DNA of 64,000 nucleotides from Stutzerimonas stutzeri (GTDB lineage Bacteria > Pseudomonadota > Gammaproteobacteria > Pseudomonadales > Pseudomonadaceae), in assembly GCF_019090095.1 (NCBI RefSeq), contig NZ_JAGQFP010000001.1:930001-994000 (forward strand), in the 5' to 3' direction. Shown here piece by piece: positions 2 through 12,868 of the stretch. The notes beneath the pieces are model-generated. The model had not been told where the DNA came from and made no database searches. It saw only the letters and a list, made by a program, of their open reading frames with translations. Within the stretch, counting starts at the first letter, position 1; the number at the start of each line of letters is the position of its first letter. A program made the translations under genes and the position numbers.

Positions 2-718
2 TTAGCGTGCCCGGACTACGTAGTTGGTGAGCATATTATTCGTGCGCAGCCACTCAATAACTTCCTGAGTCAGAAAGTCGAGATCCGCTCCACTCCCCGA
101 TGATGTTGCGTTAAAGAAATCCCTTACACATTTTGGAACGTCGTCATTCTCAAGAAACCGAATAGTGGCCAACTCATCAGAGTGCGCGTGAACCTCCCTC
201 AGAACTTCAATAGTACTAGGGATGTTGCTACGGTATTGATTAAAACGCTGATACAAGTTTGCATAGCGCTCTAGAAGTTTCCGGTTTTCCGGCAGAGACT
301 GCACGATAGTCTGCTTACGTTGTTCAGGAGGGACTCCAGCAAACAACTTGCTACTGAAGTAGACCTTCCAATCCTGTTTCTGTAAGGCCTCTGCCGAGGC
401 GGTGAACTCGGTGAGCGTCGATACCAGTTTGCTCCAGCGTTGTTTTTCTACCAAAGTGGCAGCCTTCGGCGACTCGGCAAAGCGAGCACTGATCTGGTTG
501 ATCACTTGCTTTGCCTTGTCAACACCAGGAACCGGAGTAAGCAGCACGCTCATTTCCCGGAGCATGGCATTACGACGCGCTAAGGCTAAGATTCGATCTG
601 CCAGCGCCTGTAGTTCACTTCGCTTGGCCCTCAAAGCCTCAGCTTCCTCAATGCCGCTGCTGGCAGCCTCAGCACGCATCAAACGCTCGCGAACACTCCG
701 TGCATCCTTTAAGAGCAT
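2..718 (-). CDS. Small last gene of the Dpd-like operon, possibly DpdI
   Basis: A 238-aa protein ending in a TAA at the extreme left edge, so the gene is just complete. Its ATG lies 10 bases inside the end of the upstream dpdH-like gene, so the two are probably translationally coupled. The N-terminal third is rich in Ala, Glu, Arg and Leu and looks helical or coiled-coil. No enzymatic motif, signal peptide or membrane segment is visible. I do not recognise the family directly. In known Dpd clusters the E, F, G and H proteins are accompanied by further genes (D, I, J, K) needed for restriction of DNA lacking the 7-deazaguanine mark, so position alone makes DpdI the best guess. It could equally be an unrelated accessory protein. 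The call as a real gene is firm; the name is not. Confidence 0.6.
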   Translation of the reverse strand: MLLKDARSVRERLMRAEAASSGIEEAEALRAKRSELQALADRILALARRNAMLREMSVLLTPVPGVDKAKQVINQISARFAESPKAATLVEKQRWSKLVSTLTEFTASAEALQKQDWKVYFSSKLFAGVPPEQRKQTIVQSLPENRKLLERYANLYQRFNQYRSNIPSTIEVLREVHAHSDELATIRFLENDDVPKCVRDFFNATSSGSGADLDFLTQEVIEWLRTNNMLTNYVVRAR

Positions 719-3700
719 GCAGTTTCTCCCTCCACTACCAGTGAATCTATTTCATTCGCTAGGCTTTCAAATAAGCTTAGAATCTCACTGGTCTGCTCCT
801 GCGGGTCCACACCCTGAAACTGCACTTCCAACCCTCTGGCGCGCTTATCTGAGGCCCGCACCACTTTTCGCGCCGCTTCAGCAAACCGCGACGCCACGAT
901 GAGTGGATGAATATCAAATCGCCCCATGCGACTGACTAACTGGTCATCGCTCTGCCCTTCGTCCCCTTCTACCGAATTAGCAAGCATAGAAAGTGCTTCT
1001 CGCAAAGCTCCGCTGCGGAACTCCTCGCACAAACTTTTGAAAGCCGGATGGCTAATACCAATCTCGTCCGAATTCCATACACCAGACGCCCTCAACTGCT
1101 CTGCGAGTGCCCTGAGTTCTTCTGCAACCTCTTGTTTATCGAAGTTTTCACCTAACTCTGCGACTAATCTGGTTCGGATATTACTTGCACCCTGCAATAC
1201 TTTGCGTGCCTGGGCCTTTACACGCGCTTCGCTCATGATCGCCAATGCTTGCTTCAGTTCGACAGTGATCAAGTCGAGCGAATTCGGATTGATCATTTCG
1301 CCATCTGACAATAAGCTCTCGGATACCCTCACCATATCCATGGCATAGGGAATCTTACCAGTAGTGCCCTGGAAACTGCCGCAGTAGGATGCAACAAGTT
1401 GGATCAAGTCAGGGCGTATACGTAATGCCTGCTCCTGCAAGGCACGCCACTCACTAAATTCAGCAGATGCCGATTCGGGCGGGCGCTCGGAAATATTTTG
1501 AGATCCGAATAGAAATGCAGCAAGGCTGGCCGGTGTACGGTAACGTTCTATAAGGCCGAGAATTCGGCTATTTGTGGATAGCAATCGTACTGCCAAGCCG
1601 AGTTTCTGCCGCATGCTAGCGCGTACGAGCGCTAACGCCTGTGGCATCAATCGATCCGTAAGATTGCCGATCCAGACCAAATCATCATCGCTACCTACAT
1701 AATTTACTTTGCCGCCATTTAGGTGAATTAAACGGACCACAGCTGCCAGTTCAGAGCGCAATTGCCCGGACGGGTCGGAATGATCATCTGCCACCTTGAT
1801 TGGGTCAGAATCAAGGTTGCCCTCCCCACCAGCATTCGGAATTGATATCTGTTTGGGCTTGATTGGCGACTTGATAGTGCGCTCAGCCGACCAGTCAATT
1901 CGCTCAGTGATAGCTGACGCGATCGATTGTCGAATTTGATTAGCCACCGTCTGGTTAAGGCGCTCCCCATTCTGCACCCACCTCTCTAGGGCCTCGATCA
2001 AGGAGGCGTCATCGGGTCTGGGCGGTGAGTCAGTAGGTAACTGACTGGGCTTCTCTGTCGGAATCTGTTGAGGAATGGGTTTAGGGGTAAATTGGATGTT
2101 CGGCCGATCCAACTTAAAGGCATCAAATACCTCCTTCGGAATATGGCCAATATCCGCTGGTGTACGCGGAGCATTGCCCCAGATCGCCACAACGCGCCGG
2201 TACCGCTCTCGAATTTCTTCCGAGACTGGAAGCGAAGACAACCATTGTGAGACTTCCGCATTCGTCCCCGGCACCTCAATATCTGGCGACGGAAATTGGC
2301 CACGCTCAAAAGCGGGGCGACCAGGCAAAAGTACGCTACGTAGAACATTATCAATAATGAAGCGCGGCGTAAAAACCAGGTTATTATTTCTAGTTAGCGC
2401 GGACCGAGTTAATTGCTCGATAGCTTGCTCAGTATATGGAAACAGCGGAATCTCATCTTTCTTCCCGAAAGCAGCCAATACTGAGACATCGTTGGCATCA
2501 TCAGTGGCGACATACGGATCGATCCATGCACCATGCCTGTCACTTACACCACCGTTCATTTCAAAGTGACGCACCAAATTTCGGTAGCCCCAGCGCGCAG
2601 CGTTTAAGTATGAGGCGACCAGTGCTTTGGATCGCCGGAAGACCTCTTCCGGACTGGATAAAAGACTTTCCACAATCCACTCACGTTTTGCACGTGTAGC
2701 GATCGTGTCTTGGCCGGCTAAGTAACCGTCAGTGACGGCTATAACTGAGCGCATCGTCGCGAGCTCCTTGACACCGCCCCGCACGCCCTCCTGGATTAGT
2801 ACATTGAGCAGCGTGTCTTGAATGCCGGTCAGCGCCTTAAAGTCCTCCACAAAAATCACCAACTCACGCTCTTGTTGGAGCAGCAGACGGCGAATCTCAA
2901 GGATGACCTCTTGCAATGTCATACCACCTAGAGATTGGTGCAGGCTAAATAACTGGCTAATAGCTTGGTCGACAACCTTGCTCTCATTGAGTAGTCGTGC
3001 AGCATTGCGCCTACCCTCGCCTTCGCGCAACTGAAGGGTACGTACATAGTACGATTGAGTCTTTGACGCAGCCTTAGTGATATCGATTGAGTCCGGCAGA
3101 AGGAAGTCGTCAGCCTGAAAATCCTCAACTTGCCCTTCCTGATCGGCCTGACTTTGTCCAGCGATGGCGCGCTTGACGATTTTTGGGAATACATTGCTGC
3201 GAAAATGGTCGACTAACTCGGGATCCCCCATAAACTTAGGCAACTCACTTGCGTGTCCGACACGCTCCTTCAGCAGCATATTACTAGGATTAGCTTTAAG
3301 CTGAGTAAAAAGCTCTTTCGCCAATTCGCCCAGCGCAATATCTAGCTGCCCTTGAAATCTAACAACTGCAGCTTCAATATTAATTTCTTCTGTAAACGCC
3401 TTAGCAAACTCATCCTTAACTGATGCGTACGTTTCATCCGGCAATTCTGCCAGGATCAACTCAATCACTCTTCGCAGACTGGCGCTCTTTGGGATGCGAA
3501 TGGTGACGTAGCGACCATATTCATTCGCGTTCTGTAGACGAGCAGCCAACATACGCACCATATGAGACTTACCAACTCCAGATGCACCAGTGATGGGTAC
3601 CACATGAGATCCGGATGGCACGTCTTTTGTCATCAGGTACTTGAAGAGTTCATCCTCACTCGCCTCAAAAATCTTTCCTGAAGAAATTAGCCGATAACTT

Positions 3701-3813
3701 AGAGGCGAAGGTTGGTGTACCGCCAGCAGGACAGCATCATGCGCACCTTCCGCTTCGTGGTTGATGCAGAGATTAATCTCTTCATGGGTAGGCCAATAAT
3801 CCAACAGACTCAT
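709..3813 (-). CDS. dpdH: DpdH-like P-loop ATPase
   Basis: A 1034-aa protein from the ATG at 3813. The open frame extends upstream, but that part overlaps dpdG in another frame, whereas the ATG at 3813 overlaps the dpdG stop as ATGA. A Walker A motif (GASGVGKS, about residues 76-83) follows a conserved-looking N-terminus, LLAVHQPSPLSYR. A Walker B-like strand, LVIFVEDF, lies near residue 370. The rest is long, mostly helical and lacks recognisable motifs apart from a Pro-rich linker near residue 610. From family knowledge, DpdH belongs to the set of Dpd proteins that act with the helicases in restricting DNA lacking the dADG/dPreQ0 modification. It is cytoplasmic, with no signal or membrane segment. 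I recognised the N-terminal region by memory of the family; an HMM search would settle the name. Confidence 0.8.
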   Translation of the reverse strand: MSLLDYWPTHEEINLCINHEAEGAHDAVLLAVHQPSPLSYRLISSGKIFEASEDELFKYLMTKDVPSGSHVVPITGASGVGKSHMVRMLAARLQNANEYGRYVTIRIPKSASLRRVIELILAELPDETYASVKDEFAKAFTEEINIEAAVVRFQGQLDIALGELAKELFTQLKANPSNMLLKERVGHASELPKFMGDPELVDHFRSNVFPKIVKRAIAGQSQADQEGQVEDFQADDFLLPDSIDITKAASKTQSYYVRTLQLREGEGRRNAARLLNESKVVDQAISQLFSLHQSLGGMTLQEVILEIRRLLLQQERELVIFVEDFKALTGIQDTLLNVLIQEGVRGGVKELATMRSVIAVTDGYLAGQDTIATRAKREWIVESLLSSPEEVFRRSKALVASYLNAARWGYRNLVRHFEMNGGVSDRHGAWIDPYVATDDANDVSVLAAFGKKDEIPLFPYTEQAIEQLTRSALTRNNNLVFTPRFIIDNVLRSVLLPGRPAFERGQFPSPDIEVPGTNAEVSQWLSSLPVSEEIRERYRRVVAIWGNAPRTPADIGHIPKEVFDAFKLDRPNIQFTPKPIPQQIPTEKPSQLPTDSPPRPDDASLIEALERWVQNGERLNQTVANQIRQSIASAITERIDWSAERTIKSPIKPKQISIPNAGGEGNLDSDPIKVADDHSDPSGQLRSELAAVVRLIHLNGGKVNYVGSDDDLVWIGNLTDRLMPQALALVRASMRQKLGLAVRLLSTNSRILGLIERYRTPASLAAFLFGSQNISERPPESASAEFSEWRALQEQALRIRPDLIQLVASYCGSFQGTTGKIPYAMDMVRVSESLLSDGEMINPNSLDLITVELKQALAIMSEARVKAQARKVLQGASNIRTRLVAELGENFDKQEVAEELRALAEQLRASGVWNSDEIGISHPAFKSLCEEFRSGALREALSMLANSVEGDEGQSDDQLVSRMGRFDIHPLIVASRFAEAARKVVRASDKRARGLEVQFQGVDPQEQTSEILSLFESLANEIDSLVVEGETACS

Positions 3814-4760
3814 GATATGTCCCTCAGTAGACGAACATGGGTAAAGCTTTCCCAGGCACGTCCACCTCGACCAACAAGTGTGAGTTTTGAACCAGCATCG
3901 GCCAATGTCACTAGGCTGATCACTCCCTGTAACTGTAAACGCCGCAAGGCAAATGACAGCGCAGTTGACAAGTGACCGGTTGCGGGTGCAACCCATGTTT
4001 CAGGCTTCAGCACCTTTTCTACCTCGAGACGATAATCACCAAAATCCAACACCGGTAGCCGTTCAGCCAGGCGCGAAACGAACTCAACTGCGAGCACCGT
4101 CTCGTCCTTTTGAATCACCTCTTTCAACTCTGCGCGCACTGCAACTGTTGGATCGCAGAAAAAACTGGAGTCGTCTCCAGTGGCAAAGCCAAGGAATCTC
4201 GCCCAAGACCGGAACCCTGTCCAACGCGTGTCGTTCAGAAAAATGAATCGCCCTACTTGCACCTGGGACTTGATCAGACTCTCGATTTCACCATGCGTAC
4301 TTGGTAGCGCATAGATATCCTGAGCCAAGCACCAAGCCAAACCTCGGCAAAAATCGGCAGTGCGTCCAACTGCCTCTTCCGAGATACTGCCATCTGAGGG
4401 CCAGAGCGGTAGTGCATGCATATGCTGCAACGCAAGCCTGCGGCAAATCGTAGGCAGGCGTTCGGTAAACACATCAACAGACTCTCCGCGCGCCAGGTCG
4501 ACGCCCATGCGAACTTGGTCATCGCTCTCGATGAATAGCCCCAGTGCAACCCAGCGAGCCAACGTAGCACGGGCCCGAGAGGCCAATCCCTTGACCTTCC
4601 CCTTATCAGAATCTTTTTCGGTTTCCATTTCGGAACTGGCATGCGGGACACAAATGCTGATCAACTCGTCGCGAGAAATAACTTTTTCTCGGGCGACTAG
4701 TCCGGCCAAAGTCAGCACTATCGGGTGTAGGCCATCATTTTCGCGATTGAGAATGCTCAT
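3810..4760 (-). CDS. dpdG: DpdG-like protein
   Basis: A 316-aa protein between the dpdF-like and dpdH-like genes, sharing ATGA overlaps at both ends (4757-4760 and 3810-3813). This implies ribosome re-initiation and fixed stoichiometry. The first 90 residues look like a winged-helix or other small helical domain (regular Leu/Ile spacing, then ARATLARWVALGLF). The remainder has no catalytic motif I recognise. DpdG is a protein of unknown biochemical role that accompanies DpdE, DpdF and DpdH in Dpd clusters. The assignment rests on gene order, size and the absence of other known domains. It could serve as a DNA-binding or scaffold subunit, which is inference only. Confidence 0.72.
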   Translation of the reverse strand: MSILNRENDGLHPIVLTLAGLVAREKVISRDELISICVPHASSEMETEKDSDKGKVKGLASRARATLARWVALGLFIESDDQVRMGVDLARGESVDVFTERLPTICRRLALQHMHALPLWPSDGSISEEAVGRTADFCRGLAWCLAQDIYALPSTHGEIESLIKSQVQVGRFIFLNDTRWTGFRSWARFLGFATGDDSSFFCDPTVAVRAELKEVIQKDETVLAVEFVSRLAERLPVLDFGDYRLEVEKVLKPETWVAPATGHLSTALSFALRRLQLQGVISLVTLADAGSKLTLVGRGGRAWESFTHVRLLRDIS

Positions 4761-7351
4761 TGACTTATCACTTGAGTGAGGTTGCCCAAATGCAAAGCAT
4801 TCGGGCTTACATCGGCGAGACGACGTGTAGGGTTAACAGGATCCAACATACCAAATGGCAAGAGCACGATATGGAAAGGTCTTTGTAGCATCTGGATATC
4901 CCGGAGAGTTTCCGGGCGTGAGTCAGGCTCCAGCACTGTTAATCGTGCCAGAGGGGAGTAGGGTTCCAGATCGCACTCCTGAAGGGATCGCTGTAGCAAC
5001 ACCCGATCTCGCGTACGCTGGTATAGCCGCCCCCACTCAGGCTGACTCACTAAAGCAGTCAAGGGATGAGTTGCTAACTCGCGTACGCCGCACGACTGCA
5101 CCAACCATCCTGCAAATTGCAGGATTGACTGTTGGATCTGTTGCCTAGACTGGCTTTCGTCATAGAAGACATAAGCAAAGGTGGGGTCCACCCAAGGAAA
5201 TTTATCCAGCCAGGAGCTCATTGTTGATGGCAAAACGCGATTCACCGGCACTACCATGGGCTCGCTATAGTGCCTGCTGTTCTCAGTGCCGAAGCGATCT
5301 CTCGGACAGCCCCCGCAAACCTGCGAAACCTGGACCGGCCAGCGCGGCGACCGAATACGATACAACTGCGCAAGAGTGGCGCCCACCTCTTGGCCGATCT
5401 GCTGATCCAACCCACTGGACTGCGGCAGCAGTTGCCGCATCATTTGCAAGTTCCGCTCAGCCGCCACTAGCGTATTGTTGCGCGAGGCAGTGACCAAGCT
5501 TTCCCAAACCTCAGGAATCTGATGGCCGTCGTTGAGGATGCGCACGCGCACATTCGCCATGGCCGCTAGCATCGACGAAGCATCCTCGCCCGGGTCGGCG
5601 CCCTGCTCGTCACACTTGACCTCAAGGTCGAGGGCTATGAGGCCAGCACGCGCCATTAGGATGAGGGTGCGCATGTTCCAGTTAACGTTGTATTCGCTCC
5701 CCCCCGGCAACCCTTCGCGCACGGCGTCGATATTGATTTCCCACAACGCCTCATCACCGGTTGGTTGGCGCGACTGGTACATCGCCTTCCAACGACTGAA
5801 GCCGAGTTCATCGGAAATAATCCTGGGTCTTGCGAGTCGTTCGGGAAGAATCCAGTCGCTATCGTCGAATAAAAGCAAGCTAACCGAGGACTTGCCATCA
5901 CGACCACCGCGACCCACCTCTTGATAATAACGGTCCAGGGTCTCCGGAATCGTCGCATGGATTACCGTGCGCACATCACTTTTATCGAGGCCGACACCAA
6001 AAGCAGAGGTCGCGACGATACCGTCGAGGCGATTTGCAGACCACTCCTCAATGATGCGCTTCCGCTCGCGGTCAGGCGTTCCGCCGTCGAATGTAGCAAT
6101 GCGGTGCAGGCCACCACTGCAACGAAGCGTGGTGTTCCACTGCGCGACTTCCTCACGTTTCGTAACGTAAAGAATAAATGGCCGCGGCGCATAGCGCAGC
6201 GATTCCAGTACGCGGTTTTGTTTTTCCTGCGGCGAAGAAGCCTTATAGAACCAATACTGCGGCTCTGGGCGAAGATGCACCGCCGATACCATTTGCACCC
6301 GCTCAGATGGGCCGAATAGGCTCGCCAAAGTGTCCACTGTTTCCTCCGTGAAAGTGGCACTCATTAGCAAGGTACGAAAACCACGCGGCGACAACCGAAG
6401 CAGGCTGTGGCGCAGCCCTGCCAAGGCCTGAAAGGACGGGCGGAACTCGTCGCCCCACTGGGTGACGAGGTGGGCTTCATCAATCACGAAATAGCGCAGC
6501 ATGCCTGCTGTAGCAGCATCCGAAACGGCACGTAGCAAGGAGGTAGTGAGCGCCTCTGGTGAGGTGAAAAGAATGCGCTGCGTACCATTACGCAAGCGCT
6601 GCCTAATCGCGGCACGCTGTTCTTGCGATAAGCCACCGTGCCAGGCCAATGGCCAATCTGGTCGGGAAAGACCATTACTCTGGAATAGTTTTCCCATAGC
6701 ACGAGCTTGATCGAGGGCAAGGGCGACTGTGGGCACGACGAAAATCGTCAGATGACCATCCTCTTTATTAACTAAGGCTGGTGCTTGCCCAACCAGACTT
6801 TTTCCAGAGCCCGTAGGCAAGTTGACTATCAGGGTATCGCCTTCGGGTATCAAGAAGGCCGCGCGGACCGCCTCTCGTTGTCCAGGGGAAGAATAGTTGG
6901 TGAAGCCCGTGGAATCACGAATGAAAGGGTCGGCCTCGCATTTCATATCCTGGCGCACTCTCACATCGGAAAATGCATCCGCGAAGACACCACGCTCCCC
7001 ACTACCAAGCCACTCTGGATGCCACTCGCGAGCTGCCAGCAGATAGGCAGAGGACCCGGCCTCTGTCGCATCCATCCCATGGTTGGCCCAACTCGCTCGA
7101 TCGGGCCACCCCTTACCGGCAGGCACACGCAGCCTCATACCTTTGCCCACGCCGTTGCTGGTTCGGAGCAAAAGTTGCCGTAACAAAGGCTGCAAGTCAG
7201 CATGCCATGCTGTATTACCGCGCTGGGCTTGCGCCGTATCCAGTACTTGGCAGATCCGGTCCAGCAGACTGTCATCTACCTTCTCCGGCCAAACATCAAC
7301 AATCGGCCAGGCCGCGAGGACAGCCTGCAACTCATCGAAACCGAAACTCAT
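4757..7351 (-). CDS. dpdF: DpdF-like RecQ-family helicase
   Basis: An 864-aa superfamily 2 helicase. An N-terminal region of about 150 residues precedes the Q-motif-like YSSPGQREAV. Motif I is LPTGSGKS (about 179-186) and motif II is DEAH (about 291-294), followed by the RecQ-like context LVTQWGDEFRPSF. Motif III is SATF, and motif VI is YYQEVGRGGRDG. The Cys pair in CGGCPRD (about residue 660) may be part of a metal site. RecQ-type proteins translocate 3'-5' and unwind DNA; in the Dpd setting DpdF is thought to contribute to restricting unmodified DNA. The start overlaps the dpdE stop as ATGA. The main alternative is an unrelated RecQ-like defence helicase, but the adjacent DpdE-, G- and H-like genes argue for DpdF. 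Confidence 0.82.
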   Translation of the reverse strand: MSFGFDELQAVLAAWPIVDVWPEKVDDSLLDRICQVLDTAQAQRGNTAWHADLQPLLRQLLLRTSNGVGKGMRLRVPAGKGWPDRASWANHGMDATEAGSSAYLLAAREWHPEWLGSGERGVFADAFSDVRVRQDMKCEADPFIRDSTGFTNYSSPGQREAVRAAFLIPEGDTLIVNLPTGSGKSLVGQAPALVNKEDGHLTIFVVPTVALALDQARAMGKLFQSNGLSRPDWPLAWHGGLSQEQRAAIRQRLRNGTQRILFTSPEALTTSLLRAVSDAATAGMLRYFVIDEAHLVTQWGDEFRPSFQALAGLRHSLLRLSPRGFRTLLMSATFTEETVDTLASLFGPSERVQMVSAVHLRPEPQYWFYKASSPQEKQNRVLESLRYAPRPFILYVTKREEVAQWNTTLRCSGGLHRIATFDGGTPDRERKRIIEEWSANRLDGIVATSAFGVGLDKSDVRTVIHATIPETLDRYYQEVGRGGRDGKSSVSLLLFDDSDWILPERLARPRIISDELGFSRWKAMYQSRQPTGDEALWEINIDAVREGLPGGSEYNVNWNMRTLILMARAGLIALDLEVKCDEQGADPGEDASSMLAAMANVRVRILNDGHQIPEVWESLVTASRNNTLVAAERNLQMMRQLLPQSSGLDQQIGQEVGATLAQLYRIRSPRWPVQVSQVCGGCPRDRFGTENSRHYSEPMVVPVNRVLPSTMSSWLDKFPWVDPTFAYVFYDESQSRQQIQQSILQFAGWLVQSCGVRELATHPLTALVSQPEWGRLYQRTRDRVLLQRSLQECDLEPYSPLARLTVLEPDSRPETLRDIQMLQRPFHIVLLPFGMLDPVNPTRRLADVSPNALHLGNLTQVISQ

Positions 7352-10300
7352 GCGTCTTCCTGAACGTGGCGCTGGATGATTGATACAGGTTCGCTGGTCA
7401 GGAAAACCACGCCTGCAACGTCGACCTTCACCGAAGGTGACGTTATGCCGCGGTGAACCGCTTCGTTAAGCGCCTGCTCGAGTTTGAGTTGGCGAGCCTC
7501 AGCTTCCGCCTCCCTCCCCTGCAAAGACTGGATACGAGCCTGCAACTGGGCGTAACGAACTTCATCTTCGGCCAGTGCCCGATCCAGCGCGCTCCGCTGC
7601 CGCTCCTTCAATTCTGGCTTAGCCCTCATGATGGCCAGCGCACGGTCACGCATCCGTTCGCAGCGCTCCTTCCAATTAGTGAAAGTATCCGGCGCCATCC
7701 TACGAAAAGCACGGAAGTAAGGTGTCTCAAGATTCTTGTCGATATAGCCATTTCCGCCCCGCTTTGCGTACTCAGGCATCAAAAAGCGCTCAATAAAATC
7801 CTCCGACAGTTCATCTCCGTCCTCGTCCACCCAGACTTGCATCACCGTTGGACCAAACAAGGAATCTCCGCGTCTTGCCAGAACTGCTCTTGCTGCTTCG
7901 CTCGACTGTTTTTGGTTGGCAGTCAGAACTGCAACTGCTGCGTCCAGGCAAGATTCGATCACAAAGTCAAAACGGAAGCAGAGTCGAATTTCTGAAGACG
8001 GGAAATGGTCGAACACTTGCCGCCACATTGCATAACTGCGACCTCGGTCGTCCGCTTCAGAAAACGATTTGATGGCCTCAATGAACTCTGTACCGTAACG
8101 TAGCGGGCGAACCTTGCGCCTAACGGCAGTGGGACGGTGTACAACGTATGGATATGATTGCGGCCGAGTCGAACGACTGCCAGGTGCATCAAAGTCAATG
8201 GCACCTAAAAAGTCTCCGATGAACCCTGACGAAGAGATGAGGGTTGGCGGTTTTTTGTCACCATCCGGCGAGAAGTAATGAAATCGGAATGGTTCGTCTA
8301 CAAGTTGGGTACCGGGACGAATCTGTTCGACTACCTTGCGGAACAGAAGGGTGTGCTCAATCCAATACATCATTGTGTCCCGTATGGTCCTCCAGTCCGA
8401 GTCGACTTCGAACAGTTCGTCCAACTCCGCTTCAGGCACAGGTGACAACTGATCCAGTGCGTCTTGCTGGTCAATCAGTTTGAGTTCGCGGGCAACTAGG
8501 CCAGTGGGGCCAGCCAATCGTTCACGAAGCGCGCCAAGTGCCTCTGCGCCGCCATGAATCATTGCCTCCTTCAAATCACCTAACTCTGCCTCAACCAAAT
8601 ACTGCAGGCTAGAAATAGACTGGTTGAAGATGCCCCATCCCTGATCGAGAATGCCAAACCATGCTGTTTGCATAGGAGCACATTCATTGAGCAGAACGTA
8701 GGACTGAATCGAACTGCCAGCGCCATAGCGGTCAACACGACCCATACGCTGCTCGATTCGATTGGGCTGTAGTGGGAGGTCAAAATGCACCAAGACCTTG
8801 TTCCCGCCCTGCAGGTTGATGCCCTCTTCAGCATTGTGGTCGCAGACGATGACTCGAATCGAGGAATCAGTTAGAAAATCTCGCCAACTAGCCTCAGTAG
8901 ATTCATCAATATTAATATTGTGTCGGACCGTGTAGATTCCGTTGCTTTTTAGGTAAGCAAAGACCTTATCTGTTACGGTTTCATTGCTGCAGAAAACCAC
9001 CACCTTAGTCGACTCCGGCAGCAATCGTATCCCCCTATACAATTGATCGAGTCGTGTCGCCATCCACTCATCGTTGTCAATCGCACAAATGACCGCCTCG
9101 AGAAACTCCTCCTCTCCAATAAAAGACGAGATCGAATCGCTCCCGATACCACGTTGGCGTTCCAAACAAAGCTGACGAAGGCCAATTAGATCCTCAAAAA
9201 GAGCGCAAACCGCGCTCCAGTAGAATGCTCCCAACTCCTGTGCGGCAACGTTACCTTCTTGATAGATCGACAATGAGGCACTAACACGCCAGTCCTCTAG
9301 AACTGATTCGAGCCGCGCCATGGCAGAATCTCCAACCTTCCAGACTTGTACTCCTTTGCGTTCGGGAGTTAGCCCTCCAACTTGGCTACGTCGATTGCGC
9401 AGAATGCGACGATTAAGACGATAAGTCTCGGAGATATGAGCTCTCAGTTGCCGTACAGATGCGCAAAATTCCGGATCATCCTCATCTGGCAACTCTAGTA
9501 ATTTCTCCTTGAGTGCCCCTGCTAATTGCACCAAGCGCGAGTCATTCGGAATTCTCTCGCTCAAATCTTCAAGCACACTATCCATGAAAAATGAATTACT
9601 TGGATCTAAGGCAGCAACCGCTTCAGCGAGAGCCTGCCGATTGACGATTTTGGCATGAAAACTCTCTAGGTCATCTAGCGGGTAAACCACCGGATCCAAG
9701 AGATGCAACATACGGAGGAAGCCAGGCTCGTTGCGCAAAATGGGAGTCGCCGATAGAAGTAGCAAACGATCGATATGCTGCGCCACGTCGCTAATTACAC
9801 GGTATAAGTCTTGCGTAGCTTCGCCGGCAAGAGGATCGGCCAAGTGATGCGCTTCGTCGATGACAAGCATAGATAGGTTGGGCAGCACCTCGCGCAATTG
9901 CTCGTTATCTTCCTGCGCCAATACCAACACTGATTCGCCGATGAATTCACTAAGCCCAAAGCGAACGATCAACTCATTCTGCCATTGGGTAACCAGCGCA
10001 GGCGGGACCAGCACGAGTACTCGATGGTTACGTAAATCGTCGAGCACAGCTTGACGGATGATGACGCCTGCCTCGATGGTCTTTCCGAGGCCAACCTCGT
10101 CCGCAAGCAAATAGCGCTGGGAGTGATCGGTCAGAACACGTCGAATAACATCGACTTGGTGCGACTCCAACTCAATGGAAGACGAAAGCAGGGCAGAAAT
10201 GCCAAACGCACTCCCTCGCTGCTCAAGATAATTCCTTAAGAACCCTGAACGTGCCTCGGCGAAAAGTGGTGTTTCGGTAACGAAGTTGCTTAGGAAGTCG

Positions 10301-10629
10301 ACTGGATCCTGAATCGGATGCTTCCATCGGACGAACACCTGGTCGTAGTCGAGATAGACATCAACCTTGTCAGCTAGTCGGACCTCGACGCCCTCCCCAT
10401 CATCCTCGCGCACCCGCCCGATGCGCCACTGATCGCTCAGTTCGTCGTAAGTGAAGACTCGGGTGTTACGTCCCAATCGCTTGGGCATGACTGAAGAAAA
10501 CGGGACCTCCGTACGGCGCCGGCCATCGCTCGCTGGGTAATCGAAATATTCAACCAAGGCGCGCGTGCCCTCACGGTGCACAAGCTTGCACAGGCCATCT
10601 CTTTCGGAATCCTTCACTAAACAGAACAT
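7348..10629 (-). CDS. dpdE: DpdE-like SNF2/RapA-type helicase
   Basis: A 1093-aa SNF2-family ATPase and first gene of the operon. I chose the ATG at 10629 because AGAGG sits about six bases upstream; an in-frame GTG at 10677 has no such site. Helicase motifs: I, DEVGLGKT (about 177-184); II, DEAH (about 258-261); III, LLLSATP; V-VI, EEGINLQGGNKVLVHFDLP and NRIEQRMGRVDRYG. The layout is that of RapA/HepA-like swivelling ATPases with a small beta-rich N-terminal part. The C-terminal 90 residues are a charged, Glu/Arg/Ala-rich probable coiled coil. DpdE is a core member of the restriction half of Dpd islands. The gene uses many more AT-ending codons than the catabolic genes to the right, consistent with horizontal origin. 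Confidence 0.82.
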   Translation of the reverse strand: MFCLVKDSERDGLCKLVHREGTRALVEYFDYPASDGRRRTEVPFSSVMPKRLGRNTRVFTYDELSDQWRIGRVREDDGEGVEVRLADKVDVYLDYDQVFVRWKHPIQDPVDFLSNFVTETPLFAEARSGFLRNYLEQRGSAFGISALLSSSIELESHQVDVIRRVLTDHSQRYLLADEVGLGKTIEAGVIIRQAVLDDLRNHRVLVLVPPALVTQWQNELIVRFGLSEFIGESVLVLAQEDNEQLREVLPNLSMLVIDEAHHLADPLAGEATQDLYRVISDVAQHIDRLLLLSATPILRNEPGFLRMLHLLDPVVYPLDDLESFHAKIVNRQALAEAVAALDPSNSFFMDSVLEDLSERIPNDSRLVQLAGALKEKLLELPDEDDPEFCASVRQLRAHISETYRLNRRILRNRRSQVGGLTPERKGVQVWKVGDSAMARLESVLEDWRVSASLSIYQEGNVAAQELGAFYWSAVCALFEDLIGLRQLCLERQRGIGSDSISSFIGEEEFLEAVICAIDNDEWMATRLDQLYRGIRLLPESTKVVVFCSNETVTDKVFAYLKSNGIYTVRHNINIDESTEASWRDFLTDSSIRVIVCDHNAEEGINLQGGNKVLVHFDLPLQPNRIEQRMGRVDRYGAGSSIQSYVLLNECAPMQTAWFGILDQGWGIFNQSISSLQYLVEAELGDLKEAMIHGGAEALGALRERLAGPTGLVARELKLIDQQDALDQLSPVPEAELDELFEVDSDWRTIRDTMMYWIEHTLLFRKVVEQIRPGTQLVDEPFRFHYFSPDGDKKPPTLISSSGFIGDFLGAIDFDAPGSRSTRPQSYPYVVHRPTAVRRKVRPLRYGTEFIEAIKSFSEADDRGRSYAMWRQVFDHFPSSEIRLCFRFDFVIESCLDAAVAVLTANQKQSSEAARAVLARRGDSLFGPTVMQVWVDEDGDELSEDFIERFLMPEYAKRGGNGYIDKNLETPYFRAFRRMAPDTFTNWKERCERMRDRALAIMRAKPELKERQRSALDRALAEDEVRYAQLQARIQSLQGREAEAEARQLKLEQALNEAVHRGITSPSVKVDVAGVVFLTSEPVSIIQRHVQEDA

Positions 10630-11179
10630 GATGCCTCTTGCGTCTGTAAACCAGAGCGGGAGAAGTAGCTTTGGCACTTCCCTAGCTGCCGATGTTTCCC
10701 TGACAGTCGCCTATGAGTTGCTGCTCTGCAATCGGAGCGGATATTCAACAAGCCCCATGCCACTCACGGGACAGTGCAGGATCAAATCTTATCCACTGAT
10801 CAACCTAAAAAAGCTGCAGGCGATGTTTTTCTGCCAGTATGGTTGGAACCTATCCTGATCGTCTACCTCGACCACTCCCCCCCCAACTACGCCACAGTAG
10901 GTTGCCATCCTAAAACCCCCGGGCTAGAGTGCTCCCGTCGTGGTCAATCCCACGACCGGGCGTGAGAACCCAGACGTTGTCCAAGGCGCGGTAGCGCCAT
11001 AGTGCAAAGCCAATGGTTATCCGTTGTGCTACTGCATATCTATGGCGGGCCGTGTGAGGCAGGCTTTTGCCTGGCCGGTTCCCTTGGACGCCGGTTTCTC
11101 ACCCTTGCACGGTCCGCCTCCTATGCTCGTGAGAAGGCTGGTAGGCGGCTCCTTAACCCGTCCAAGGAGCATAAGGAAA
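10630..11179. other. Divergent intergenic region between Dpd operon and island module
   Basis: About 550 bases without a convincing gene, between dpdE (leftward) and the small island ORFs (rightward). It must hold the Dpd operon promoter, but no clear -35/-10 pair stands out. A hairpin with arms GTCGTGG (10937-10943) and CCACGAC (10950-10956) lies mid-region without a T-tract. The stretch 11040-11150 has several short inverted repeats, including CAGGC-tttt-GCCTG near 11060, and could be a structured leader for the island genes. Confidence 0.5.
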
Positions 11180-11266: not shown

Positions 11267-11528
11267 GTTCGAATCCTGCGTTGTACCTTTTCCGCTGCAG
11301 CGAAGCCCGCTGCATGAATCCGAACGCTCTCCCCTACCCTCTGAAGCGGCCGCTGAACTGCGCGGCGTCATGCTCGGCAATCTGCTCGATCAACTGGCTG
11401 AACCTGACGGCTTACAGCCGACAGACTTGCGCGTGCGGATCGCGGCTTATTCAGCTCTGGCTCTGCTCGATGAAATGGTCGTGCTCTATCGCCGCGCCCT
11501 CTCCGAAGTGCGAGGAGGTGCCAGATGA
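11259..11528 (+). CDS. Island hypothetical protein, 89 aa
   Basis: The ATG at 11259 follows GCAGGAGG with good spacing and overlaps the end of the 28-codon ORF. The stop overlaps the next start as ATGA. The C-terminal half (about residues 45-85, LQPTDLRVRIAAYSALALLD) looks helical and amphipathic. I do not recognise the family. Its neighbours (QslA-like protein and RadC) are typical of Pseudomonas integrative elements, so it is probably an island housekeeping or regulatory protein. Confidence 0.65.
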   Translation: MAEFESCVVPFPLQRSPLHESERSPLPSEAAAELRGVMLGNLLDQLAEPDGLQPTDLRVRIAAYSALALLDEMVVLYRRALSEVRGGAR

Positions 11529-11872
11529 GCAAGGGTGTGATGACCTGCCTTCCACCTAACGACGGCCATCCTGGTATAGAGATCACCTGGGCTACCGACT
11601 GCAGAGAGGCATTCGACCAGGGCGTGAAACTGGCACAGACCTGGCTCGATAATGCTCGCAGCGGATGGCTCTGGGCAGTGATGATCGCGGAGCGCGATCT
11701 GCTGCCCTGCGCTATTGAGAGGCGAGCTTTTGAAGTGGGTTTCCTGAGCCGTATCCACCAGCGCATGTACTCGCATCTTCGCTGCGGTGAGCAGGCCGAG
11801 ATCTATACCGCGGGTGATTGCTTTGGCCACAGAAAGACCCTGACGCTCACAGGAGCGAGCTGTCAGGGCTGA
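11525..11872 (+). CDS. QslA-family protein (LasR anti-activator-like)
   Basis: A 115-aa protein whose central block (WLDNARSGWLWAVMIAERD, then AFEVGFLSRIHQRM) matches my memory of the QslA family. QslA (PA1244 in P. aeruginosa) binds LasR and stops it from dimerising and binding DNA, raising the quorum threshold. The length fits QslA closely. It is translationally coupled to the 89-aa gene by an ATGA overlap. QslA-domain proteins are also found on Pseudomonas genomic islands beside RadC genes, where their partner is unknown; this copy is likely of that type rather than the core-genome QslA. The domain call is fairly good; the LasR role is inference. Confidence 0.68.
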   Translation: MSKGVMTCLPPNDGHPGIEITWATDCREAFDQGVKLAQTWLDNARSGWLWAVMIAERDLLPCAIERRAFEVGFLSRIHQRMYSHLRCGEQAEIYTAGDCFGHRKTLTLTGASCQG

Positions 11873-12048: not shown

Positions 12049-12361
12049 GTGGCTACCAGCCTCGTTCCTGTTCCGTTGCTGGTGCAGGCCATGGCTGCAT
12101 TTCTGCTGCTCGCCAACAACGCCTCTGGGCGTTTTAGGCTGTACCGATAGAGCCTGCGCGCTTCGCTTGCTGGTGGCGCCTGTGAGATCGTTGTAATGGC
12201 GGTCTTGCTGTTTCCTCTCACCCTATCACGGCGTTCTCGCCGTCAAGGGCTGCACGCGCTTCGCGCGCTTGCGGCAGGGCCGGCTATCGCCCCCTGACTG
12301 CTGCGCTGCGTCGTGCTGGGCCGGTTCCGGGCAATTCCGCCCGAGCAACTGGAGCATGATC

Positions 12362-12868
12362 ATGTCGCAGCTTTCTCTAGCCTTTGACGCTTCGCTGATG
12401 ATTCGCGACGAGCAAGGTCGCTATCTGCCTGCCACTGCAGAACAGATCCTGGACGCTGCTCGCAAGGTGATCGATCAGAAGGTTCAGCGAGGCGCAGCCT
12501 TCACGTCTTCGGAGCTGGTCAAGGAGTACTTGATCGCGAAGCTGGGTGGCTTTGAGCACGAGGTTTTCTCAACACTGTTTCTGGATGCCAAGCATCGCCT
12601 CATACAGTACGTCGAGATGTTTCGCGGCACCATCGACAGTGCGTCTGTGTACCCACGCGAGGTGGTCAAGGAAGCACTGCGCCTGAATGCAGCTGCAGTG
12701 ATCTTCGCGCACAACCATCCAAGCGGAAATCCAGAGCCAAGCCAGGCTGACAAGGTACTCACACAACGTTTGAAAGAAGCCTTGGCGCTGGTAGATGTCC
12801 GCTCGCTGGATCACATCATCGTGGCAGGCCAACGCACCGCATCTTTCGCTGAGCTTGGGTTGCTATGA
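12362..12868 (+). CDS. radC: RadC-family JAB/MPN protein, copy 1
   Basis: 168 aa from the ATG at 12362, with GGAG at 12351-12354; an ATG two codons earlier is too close to that site. The C-terminal JAB/MPN domain carries the metalloprotease-like motif HNHPSGNPEPSQAD (about residues 117-130). The usual N-terminal helix-hairpin-helix of chromosomal RadC (about 220 aa) is missing, as is normal for the short RadC proteins of integrative elements. Despite the name, a role in DNA repair is not established for this family. Eight residues differ from copy 2 at 59062. The gene ends just before a strong hairpin terminator. Confidence 0.88.
   Translation: MSQLSLAFDASLMIRDEQGRYLPATAEQILDAARKVIDQKVQRGAAFTSSELVKEYLIAKLGGFEHEVFSTLFLDAKHRLIQYVEMFRGTIDSASVYPREVVKEALRLNAAAVIFAHNHPSGNPEPSQADKVLTQRLKEALALVDVRSLDHIIVAGQRTASFAELGLL

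Follow-up and report, generated by a model that had tools for sequence, protein, structure and literature searches.

What are the five tightly packed, leftward genes at the left edge of this stretch of Stutzerimonas stutzeri DNA, and to what larger system do they belong? The stretch, hereafter the window, is 64,000 nucleotides (nt) long (G000:C1:930001-994000), and an earlier note had read these genes as the restriction half of a Dpd (7-deazapurine in DNA) system, dpdE-F-G-H plus a small last gene. Sequence comparison points, with a probability of about 0.93, to dpdE-F-G-H-I, the first five of eight genes that make up the restriction operon in a complete Dpd restriction-modification island, an operon that has been swapped as a whole while the modification cassette next to it was conserved. 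All five open reading frames are found where the earlier note had placed them, and the family scores of their products are far above chance (NCBIfam scores are given as bits/curated cut-off):

7348-10629, minus strand: dpdE, SNF2/RapA-like helicase, opening the restriction operon (NCBIfam DpdE 1025.5/500 bits)
4757-7351, minus strand: dpdF, RecQ-like helicase with DEAD and Helicase_C domains (NCBIfam DpdF 928.3/550 bits)
3810-4760, minus strand: dpdG (NCBIfam DpdG 291.9/80 bits)
709-3813, minus strand: dpdH, P-loop ATPase (NCBIfam DpdH 847.4/450 bits, computed from position 3810, one Met short)
2-718, minus strand: dpdI (NCBIfam DpdI 201.7/150 bits)

The four proposed identities, E to H, are well above their cut-offs, and the small last gene, seen earlier and left without a name, gains one; PADLOC names all five genes as NCBIfam does. 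The proposed coupling also holds, with 4-base overlaps at E/F (7348-7351), F/G (4757-4760) and G/H (3810-3813), the last read in the letters as ATGA with the dpdH start codon ATG at 3813-3811, and a 10-base overlap at H/I (709-718). The restriction half was recognised correctly; instead of ending at the window edge it continues leftward with J, K and D. A gap of 15 bases separates the dpdI stop from the first possible dpdJ start (TTG), and 4 bases are shared at both J/K and K/D; given these overlaps and the short gap, E-F-G-H-I-J-K-D forms a single run of eight genes. Indeed, all eight products, DpdD to DpdK, score above their NCBIfam cut-offs, with GxGK[ST] and DExH motifs in DpdE, DpdF and DpdJ, the Walker A motif GASGVGKS in DpdH and HxK...GSMN in DpdK. 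The rest of the island lies on the same contig in C1:910001-930000 (L001; an L001 position minus 20000 is the window position), where dpdA, dpdB, dpdC, dpdD, dpdJ and dpdK, all expected on this side, are present:

L001:15418-19986, minus strand: dpdJ (NCBIfam 945.3/800 bits, scored on the first 662 residues)
L001:14888-15421, minus strand: dpdK (NCBIfam 212.9/100 bits)
L001:12624-14891, minus strand: dpdD (NCBIfam 595.8/300 bits)
L001:12075-12569, plus strand: queD (PTPS match, 87.4 bits)
L001:11488-12120, plus strand: queE (348.2/240 bits)
L001:10775-11491, plus strand: queC (207.6/150.3 bits)
L001:9702-10775, plus strand: dpdB2 (NCBIfam DpdB 378.6/300 bits)
L001:8408-9718, plus strand: dpdA, TGT-like DNA transglycosylase (NCBIfam 554.8/200 bits)
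L001:7284-8411, plus strand: dpdB1 (NCBIfam DpdB 459.4/300 bits)
L001:6277-7287, plus strand: dpdC (PADLOC DpdC 305.4 bits)
L001:5107-6183, minus strand: dpdB3, divergent from dpdC (NCBIfam DpdB 362.9/300 bits)

The genes dpdC-dpdB1-dpdA-dpdB2-queC-queE-queD converge on dpdD-K-J, with the queD and dpdD stops 55 bases apart. Both DpdE-H matches and a dpdA within tens of kilobases, on which the earlier note had let its reading depend, are there, dpdA lying 10.3-11.6 kb left of window base 1. The SFDSTSP/MFDCVMP and GGL positions of the cell's own Tgt recur in DpdA, which also carries a CxCxxC cluster. The dpdC product has no match in NCBIfam or Pfam, and its true start is probably residue 26 (L001:6352) because relatives align from about there. 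Of the preQ0 supply that had been placed on the left, queC, queE and queD are in the island; folE is outside it, at another chromosomal site (C1:110301-110834). All Dpd island parts are present with open reading frames, and the island is one more member of an already known type of anti-virus system, complete and with motifs intact. Four papers (PMC12839542, PMC12707154, PMC6884629, PMC11888242) describe preQ0 as put into DNA by DpdA and the ATPase DpdB, DpdC as making dADG, and dpdD-K as restricting DNA without it, an activity little explored so far. By analogy with this published family work, from which the chemical steps are taken, QueD, QueE, QueC and the cell's FolE would supply preQ0, DpdA with DpdB would exchange guanine in the cell's DNA for it, DpdC would convert the inserted base to the amide dADG, and a DpdD-K complex (helicases DpdE, F and J, ATPase DpdH and the PLD-type nuclease candidate DpdK) would act on unmarked DNA. 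According to PMC12458937, DpdJ belongs to the YprA helicase family and has an associated PLD-type nuclease.

How stable is the partnership between the two halves? Own DpdA finds six loci among genome contigs, all Pseudomonas-named, which with G598, G848 and our own make nine Pseudomonas-type islands (own, Pseudomonas salomonii, P. viridiflava, P. argentinensis, P. duriflava, P. taeanensis, G848, G598 and ICMP22404); G323, from another family of the same class, holds a tenth, more distant one. Pairwise identity of seven modification proteins was set against that of eight restriction proteins over the 36 pairs. The order D-K-J-I-H-G-F-E is the same in all nine, the P. viridiflava operon being on a separate 18.7-kb contig. 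Where the modification proteins are at least 90% identical (11 pairs), the restriction proteins are 27.4-29.7% identical in 9 pairs, 50.4% in one and 78.7% in one; for example, own and P. argentinensis share 93% in modification and 29% in restriction, ICMP22404 and P. salomonii 98% and 30%. The relation can also be reversed, with 71% and 79% for own and P. salomonii, and 74% and 95% for P. argentinensis and P. duriflava. Four restriction lineages result, 27-35% alike between lineages: I (own, P. salomonii, P. viridiflava, with G323), II (P. argentinensis, P. duriflava, P. taeanensis, G848), III (G598) and IV (ICMP22404). Modification and restriction identity are uncorrelated (Mantel r = -0.12, permutation p 0.74). 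Correlations of gene identity vectors are 0.94-0.99 inside the restriction operon and 0.82-0.98 among dpdB3, C, B1, A, B2 and queC, with queE at only 0.34-0.78 to these, and run from -0.26 to 0.11 across the modules. Approximately unbiased tests, which took in G323 with some modification genes missing, reject the restriction tree with modification data (p = 7e-61) and the modification tree with restriction data (p = 0.0027); the modification tree itself has several weakly supported nodes (45-60). These comparisons indicate that the eight-gene restriction operon is an exchangeable block beside a little-changed modification cassette. Block exchange of the restriction operon is a new observation; no description of it was found in the partly accessible literature searched, key Dpd papers being outside its reach.

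What the exchange leaves in place is a distinctive writer. In all nine islands dpdA is flanked by dpdB1 upstream and dpdB2 downstream, with dpdB3 divergent beside orf152, a fixed three-DpdB arrangement that is a new observation; the copy number as such is not, since PMC11888242 already counts 801 additional dpdB copies in 2,335 unique windows and gives Pseudomonas as one of the main genera. Orthologues are 72-97% identical to own DpdBs, and paralogues about 30-54%. A tree of 36 DpdB sets B1 apart from B2/B3 (support 100); the B1 and B2 proteins from three alphaproteobacterial plasmids fall on the corresponding sides. Pseudomonas-island B2 and B3 are each a clade with support 100; B3 is likely a Pseudomonas duplication of B2, and only likely because the two are sisters with support 60. 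A candidate operator accompanies the divergent copy:

L001:6278-6321: candidate operator, an inverted repeat, TGCAGTTATT-N24-AATAACTGCA, just before dpdC in the dpdB3-dpdC gap

A looser pattern, CAGTTA-N20-32-TAA[AC]TG, occurs at the dpdB3-dpdC gap only, in all nine island stretches with both strands scanned. DndB is a regulator in the phosphorothioate system. DpdB is a member of the DndB family by profile match, and it is conceivable, somewhat short of even odds, that the three DpdB are redundant or that one is a regulator only, DpdB3 binding the repeat and controlling the modification operon, as the divergent position of dpdB3 and the adjoining repeat, recognisable in 9/9 islands, would invite. 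Against this, DpdB3 keeps VDGQQR and the columns invariant across the 36 DpdB, as for an active enzyme (DGQQR is kept in 36/36), and shuffles of the own region give a repeat of at least 9 nt with 10-40 between in 28 of 1000; this rate, together with four near-copy islands, makes the operator, a sequence candidate, suggestive only. The gene at its side is the following:

L001:4643-5101, minus strand: orf152, unknown helical protein

It adjoins dpdB3 in 9/9 Pseudomonas-type islands; its 43 homologues, where taxon-named, are from Pseudomonas, Stutzerimonas and Ectopseudomonas, and one (P. aeruginosa name) turns up in 212 contigs.

Which of the two modules moved? The break between them falls at the queE/queD-dpdD junction. 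After a first block with unequal starts, own and P. argentinensis DNA are 86-99% identical per 100-column block through queC-queE and 67-79% in queD, after which the alignment ends; across the restriction operon the sole match longer than 150 nt is one of 194 nt at 69%, in dpdJ. The other edge is narrow:

10630-10887, no strand: right edge of the exchanged block, P. argentinensis homology being back at 10887

From 10887, 258 bases upstream of the dpdE start, blastn gives 90.2% over 877 nt. P. salomonii, ICMP22404 and G848 are alike to mid queE, about 61-77% in its last part, and then not at all. Their right flank, chromosomal DNA with genes that we take to be pheT-pheS-infC, is beside a tRNA-Pro gene, in a region found in 59/59 sampled genomes of their genus. 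The islands' sites beside pheT are:

L055:14084-14160, L056:8300-8376 and L070:15652-15728: tRNA-Pro(GGG) sites, three islands

In these three, the right end is thus the attachment site, and the islands may have entered this same site separately; around our own island, L001 and the window showed no tRNA gene. At the P. salomonii queE-dpdD junction (L057/L056) there is 2.6 kb of extra DNA, versus 5-166 bases in seven other islands. The left end of our own island carries one further feature:

L001:2623-3873, plus strand: tyrosine integrase

Perhaps it was the modification cassette that moved, a recent sweep or gene conversion having made dpdC-queE alike across species, with old restriction operons left where they were. 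We give this roughly one chance in three: the P. salomonii/ICMP22404 cassette is 95.4% identical in nucleotides versus 89.8% for the chromosomal flank, and own queC-queE-queD is 92-95% identical to G598 where dpdA and the dpdBs are 75-81%, so smaller modification pieces move too. The right flank that own and P. argentinensis also share is, by contrast, as expected if the operon alone had been replaced. Whichever module moved, the pairing of modules changes.

Several points weigh against exchange of the restriction operon as we read it. Four of the nine islands (ICMP22404, P. salomonii, P. viridiflava and G848) have a near-same modification cassette and are not independent, and the P. viridiflava halves are on different contigs. 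Identities of about 27-30% are near saturation, which leaves the correlations to depend on few pairs. DpdI falls below its 150-bit cut-off in three foreign lineages (ICMP22404 28.1, P. argentinensis 107.3, G598 75.8), where it was assigned by weak match and position. With a right end at an attachment site, replacement in one resident locus is less clear, though the change of partner stands. Finally, exchange is by itself no demonstration of how the mark is read. The exchanged operons nevertheless look functional from their sequence, ICMP22404 DpdD, K, H, G, F and E being above NCBIfam cut-offs and motifs being present in the restriction lineages checked. The G323 island has its dpdE divided into two parts, with about 2.5 kb between them (L066 = G323:C1:46001-66000).

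That the restriction operon is independent of the mark, a DISARM- or Druantia-like defence of SNF2, RecQ and YprA helicases that acts alone and is a mere defence-island neighbour of the modification genes, is very improbable: DpdE is related to RapA and DISARM DrmD (153.8 bits) and the modules vary independently, but that score is far under the 610 cut-off, both modules share a genome in 9/9 cases and a contig, converging, in 8/9, and published islands lower transformation by unmodified DNA (PMC12707154). DISARM itself was rejected, with DrmD SNF2 helicase models at 153.8 and 91.9 bits versus cut-offs of 610 and 950.

Exchange of the restriction operon suggests a restriction complex that recognises whether DNA is marked and can do without contacts co-adapted to the writer proteins. 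Classically, both halves of a restriction-modification system need matched specificity; free exchange would thus limit how Dpd can tell self from non-self and how its mark is read. The relatives are a natural experiment, a near-same writer (up to 98% protein identity) paired with operons of different lineages, and these natural readers, 27-35% identical, are a set for locating mark-contacting restriction parts. The generic-reader suggestion is directly testable. More speculatively, and on balance doubtful, the complex might be a generic mark reader without writer-matched specificity, targeting might lie wholly in DpdA/DpdB with three DpdB for three target classes, and Pseudomonas, keeping one writer, might swap whole eight-gene operons of at least four lineages, probably escaping phage inhibitors of restriction proteins.

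The nearest known systems share the plan and differ in detail. Salmonella enterica Montevideo-type islands, as outlined in PMC11888242, have all eleven dpd families and adjacent synthesis (dpdA-C) and restriction (dpdD-K) operons with preQ0 genes alongside, as here; compared by description, our island differs in three dpdB, orf152 and an outside folE. A single-DpdB layout was likewise rejected, with three dpdB in own island and in 9/9 Pseudomonas-type islands. The Enterobacter cloacae plasmid pPOL9A has annotated dpdA, dpdB, D, K, J, H, G, F and E in our order, a dpdC-position gene, dpdA and dpdB converging on D-K-J-(unnamed gene at the dpdI place)-H-G-F-E; it differs in that its only dpdB follows dpdA, that the stretch has no que genes listed and that its DpdA is 40% identical to own. 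Alphaproteobacterial plasmids (Sinorhizobium, Methylobacterium, Caulobacter, Agrobacterium, Bradyrhizobium, Skermanella) share the order (dpdC-position gene)-dpdB-dpdA-dpdB-queE with two dpdB versus our three. Those of Methylobacterium and Caulobacter carry F-G-H-I relatives below cut-off (DpdH 285-303/450) and a giant AAA protein (about 2,170 residues in Methylobacterium):

L077:17447-25266, L078:17100-25263 and L088:3649-10170: alphaproteobacterial writers (two DpdB) beside diverged DpdF-G-H-I and the giant AAA protein

Such sets are possibly a separate Dpd restriction type, and they again point to writers of a single kind being combined with differing restriction sets. In Dnd/Ssp phosphorothioate systems, according to PMC10853773, the modification module is often decoupled from one fixed restriction module, similar to here; other effectors replace DndFGH there, whereas here all eight genes are homologous from one exchanged operon to the next. 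DndB and DpdB are related, and the chemistry is different.

How common is the system? DpdA is above cut-off in 4/398 genomes of the family (own included), 5/398 of G735's genus and 2/56 of our own genus, family and genus samples overlapping; near-misses in the family survey, at about 32 bits or less, look like ordinary Tgt. DpdB is above cut-off in 2/369 genomes of the class. Seven of 17 plasmid records were opened, all from rows with both dpdA and dpdB annotated: Enterobacter with one dpdB and six alphaproteobacterial ones with two, the Agrobacterium plasmid also having, at a distance of 6 kb, an unnamed gene with a DGQHR domain.

Just right of our restriction operon, window positions 11525-11872 give a full match to QslA (142.9 bits), annotated as a LasR-specific antiactivator, in a region partly common to P. 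argentinensis and G598. Also right of the island, 12269-12868 encodes a RadC-like JAB domain protein (153.8 bits) in DNA common to P. argentinensis and G598.

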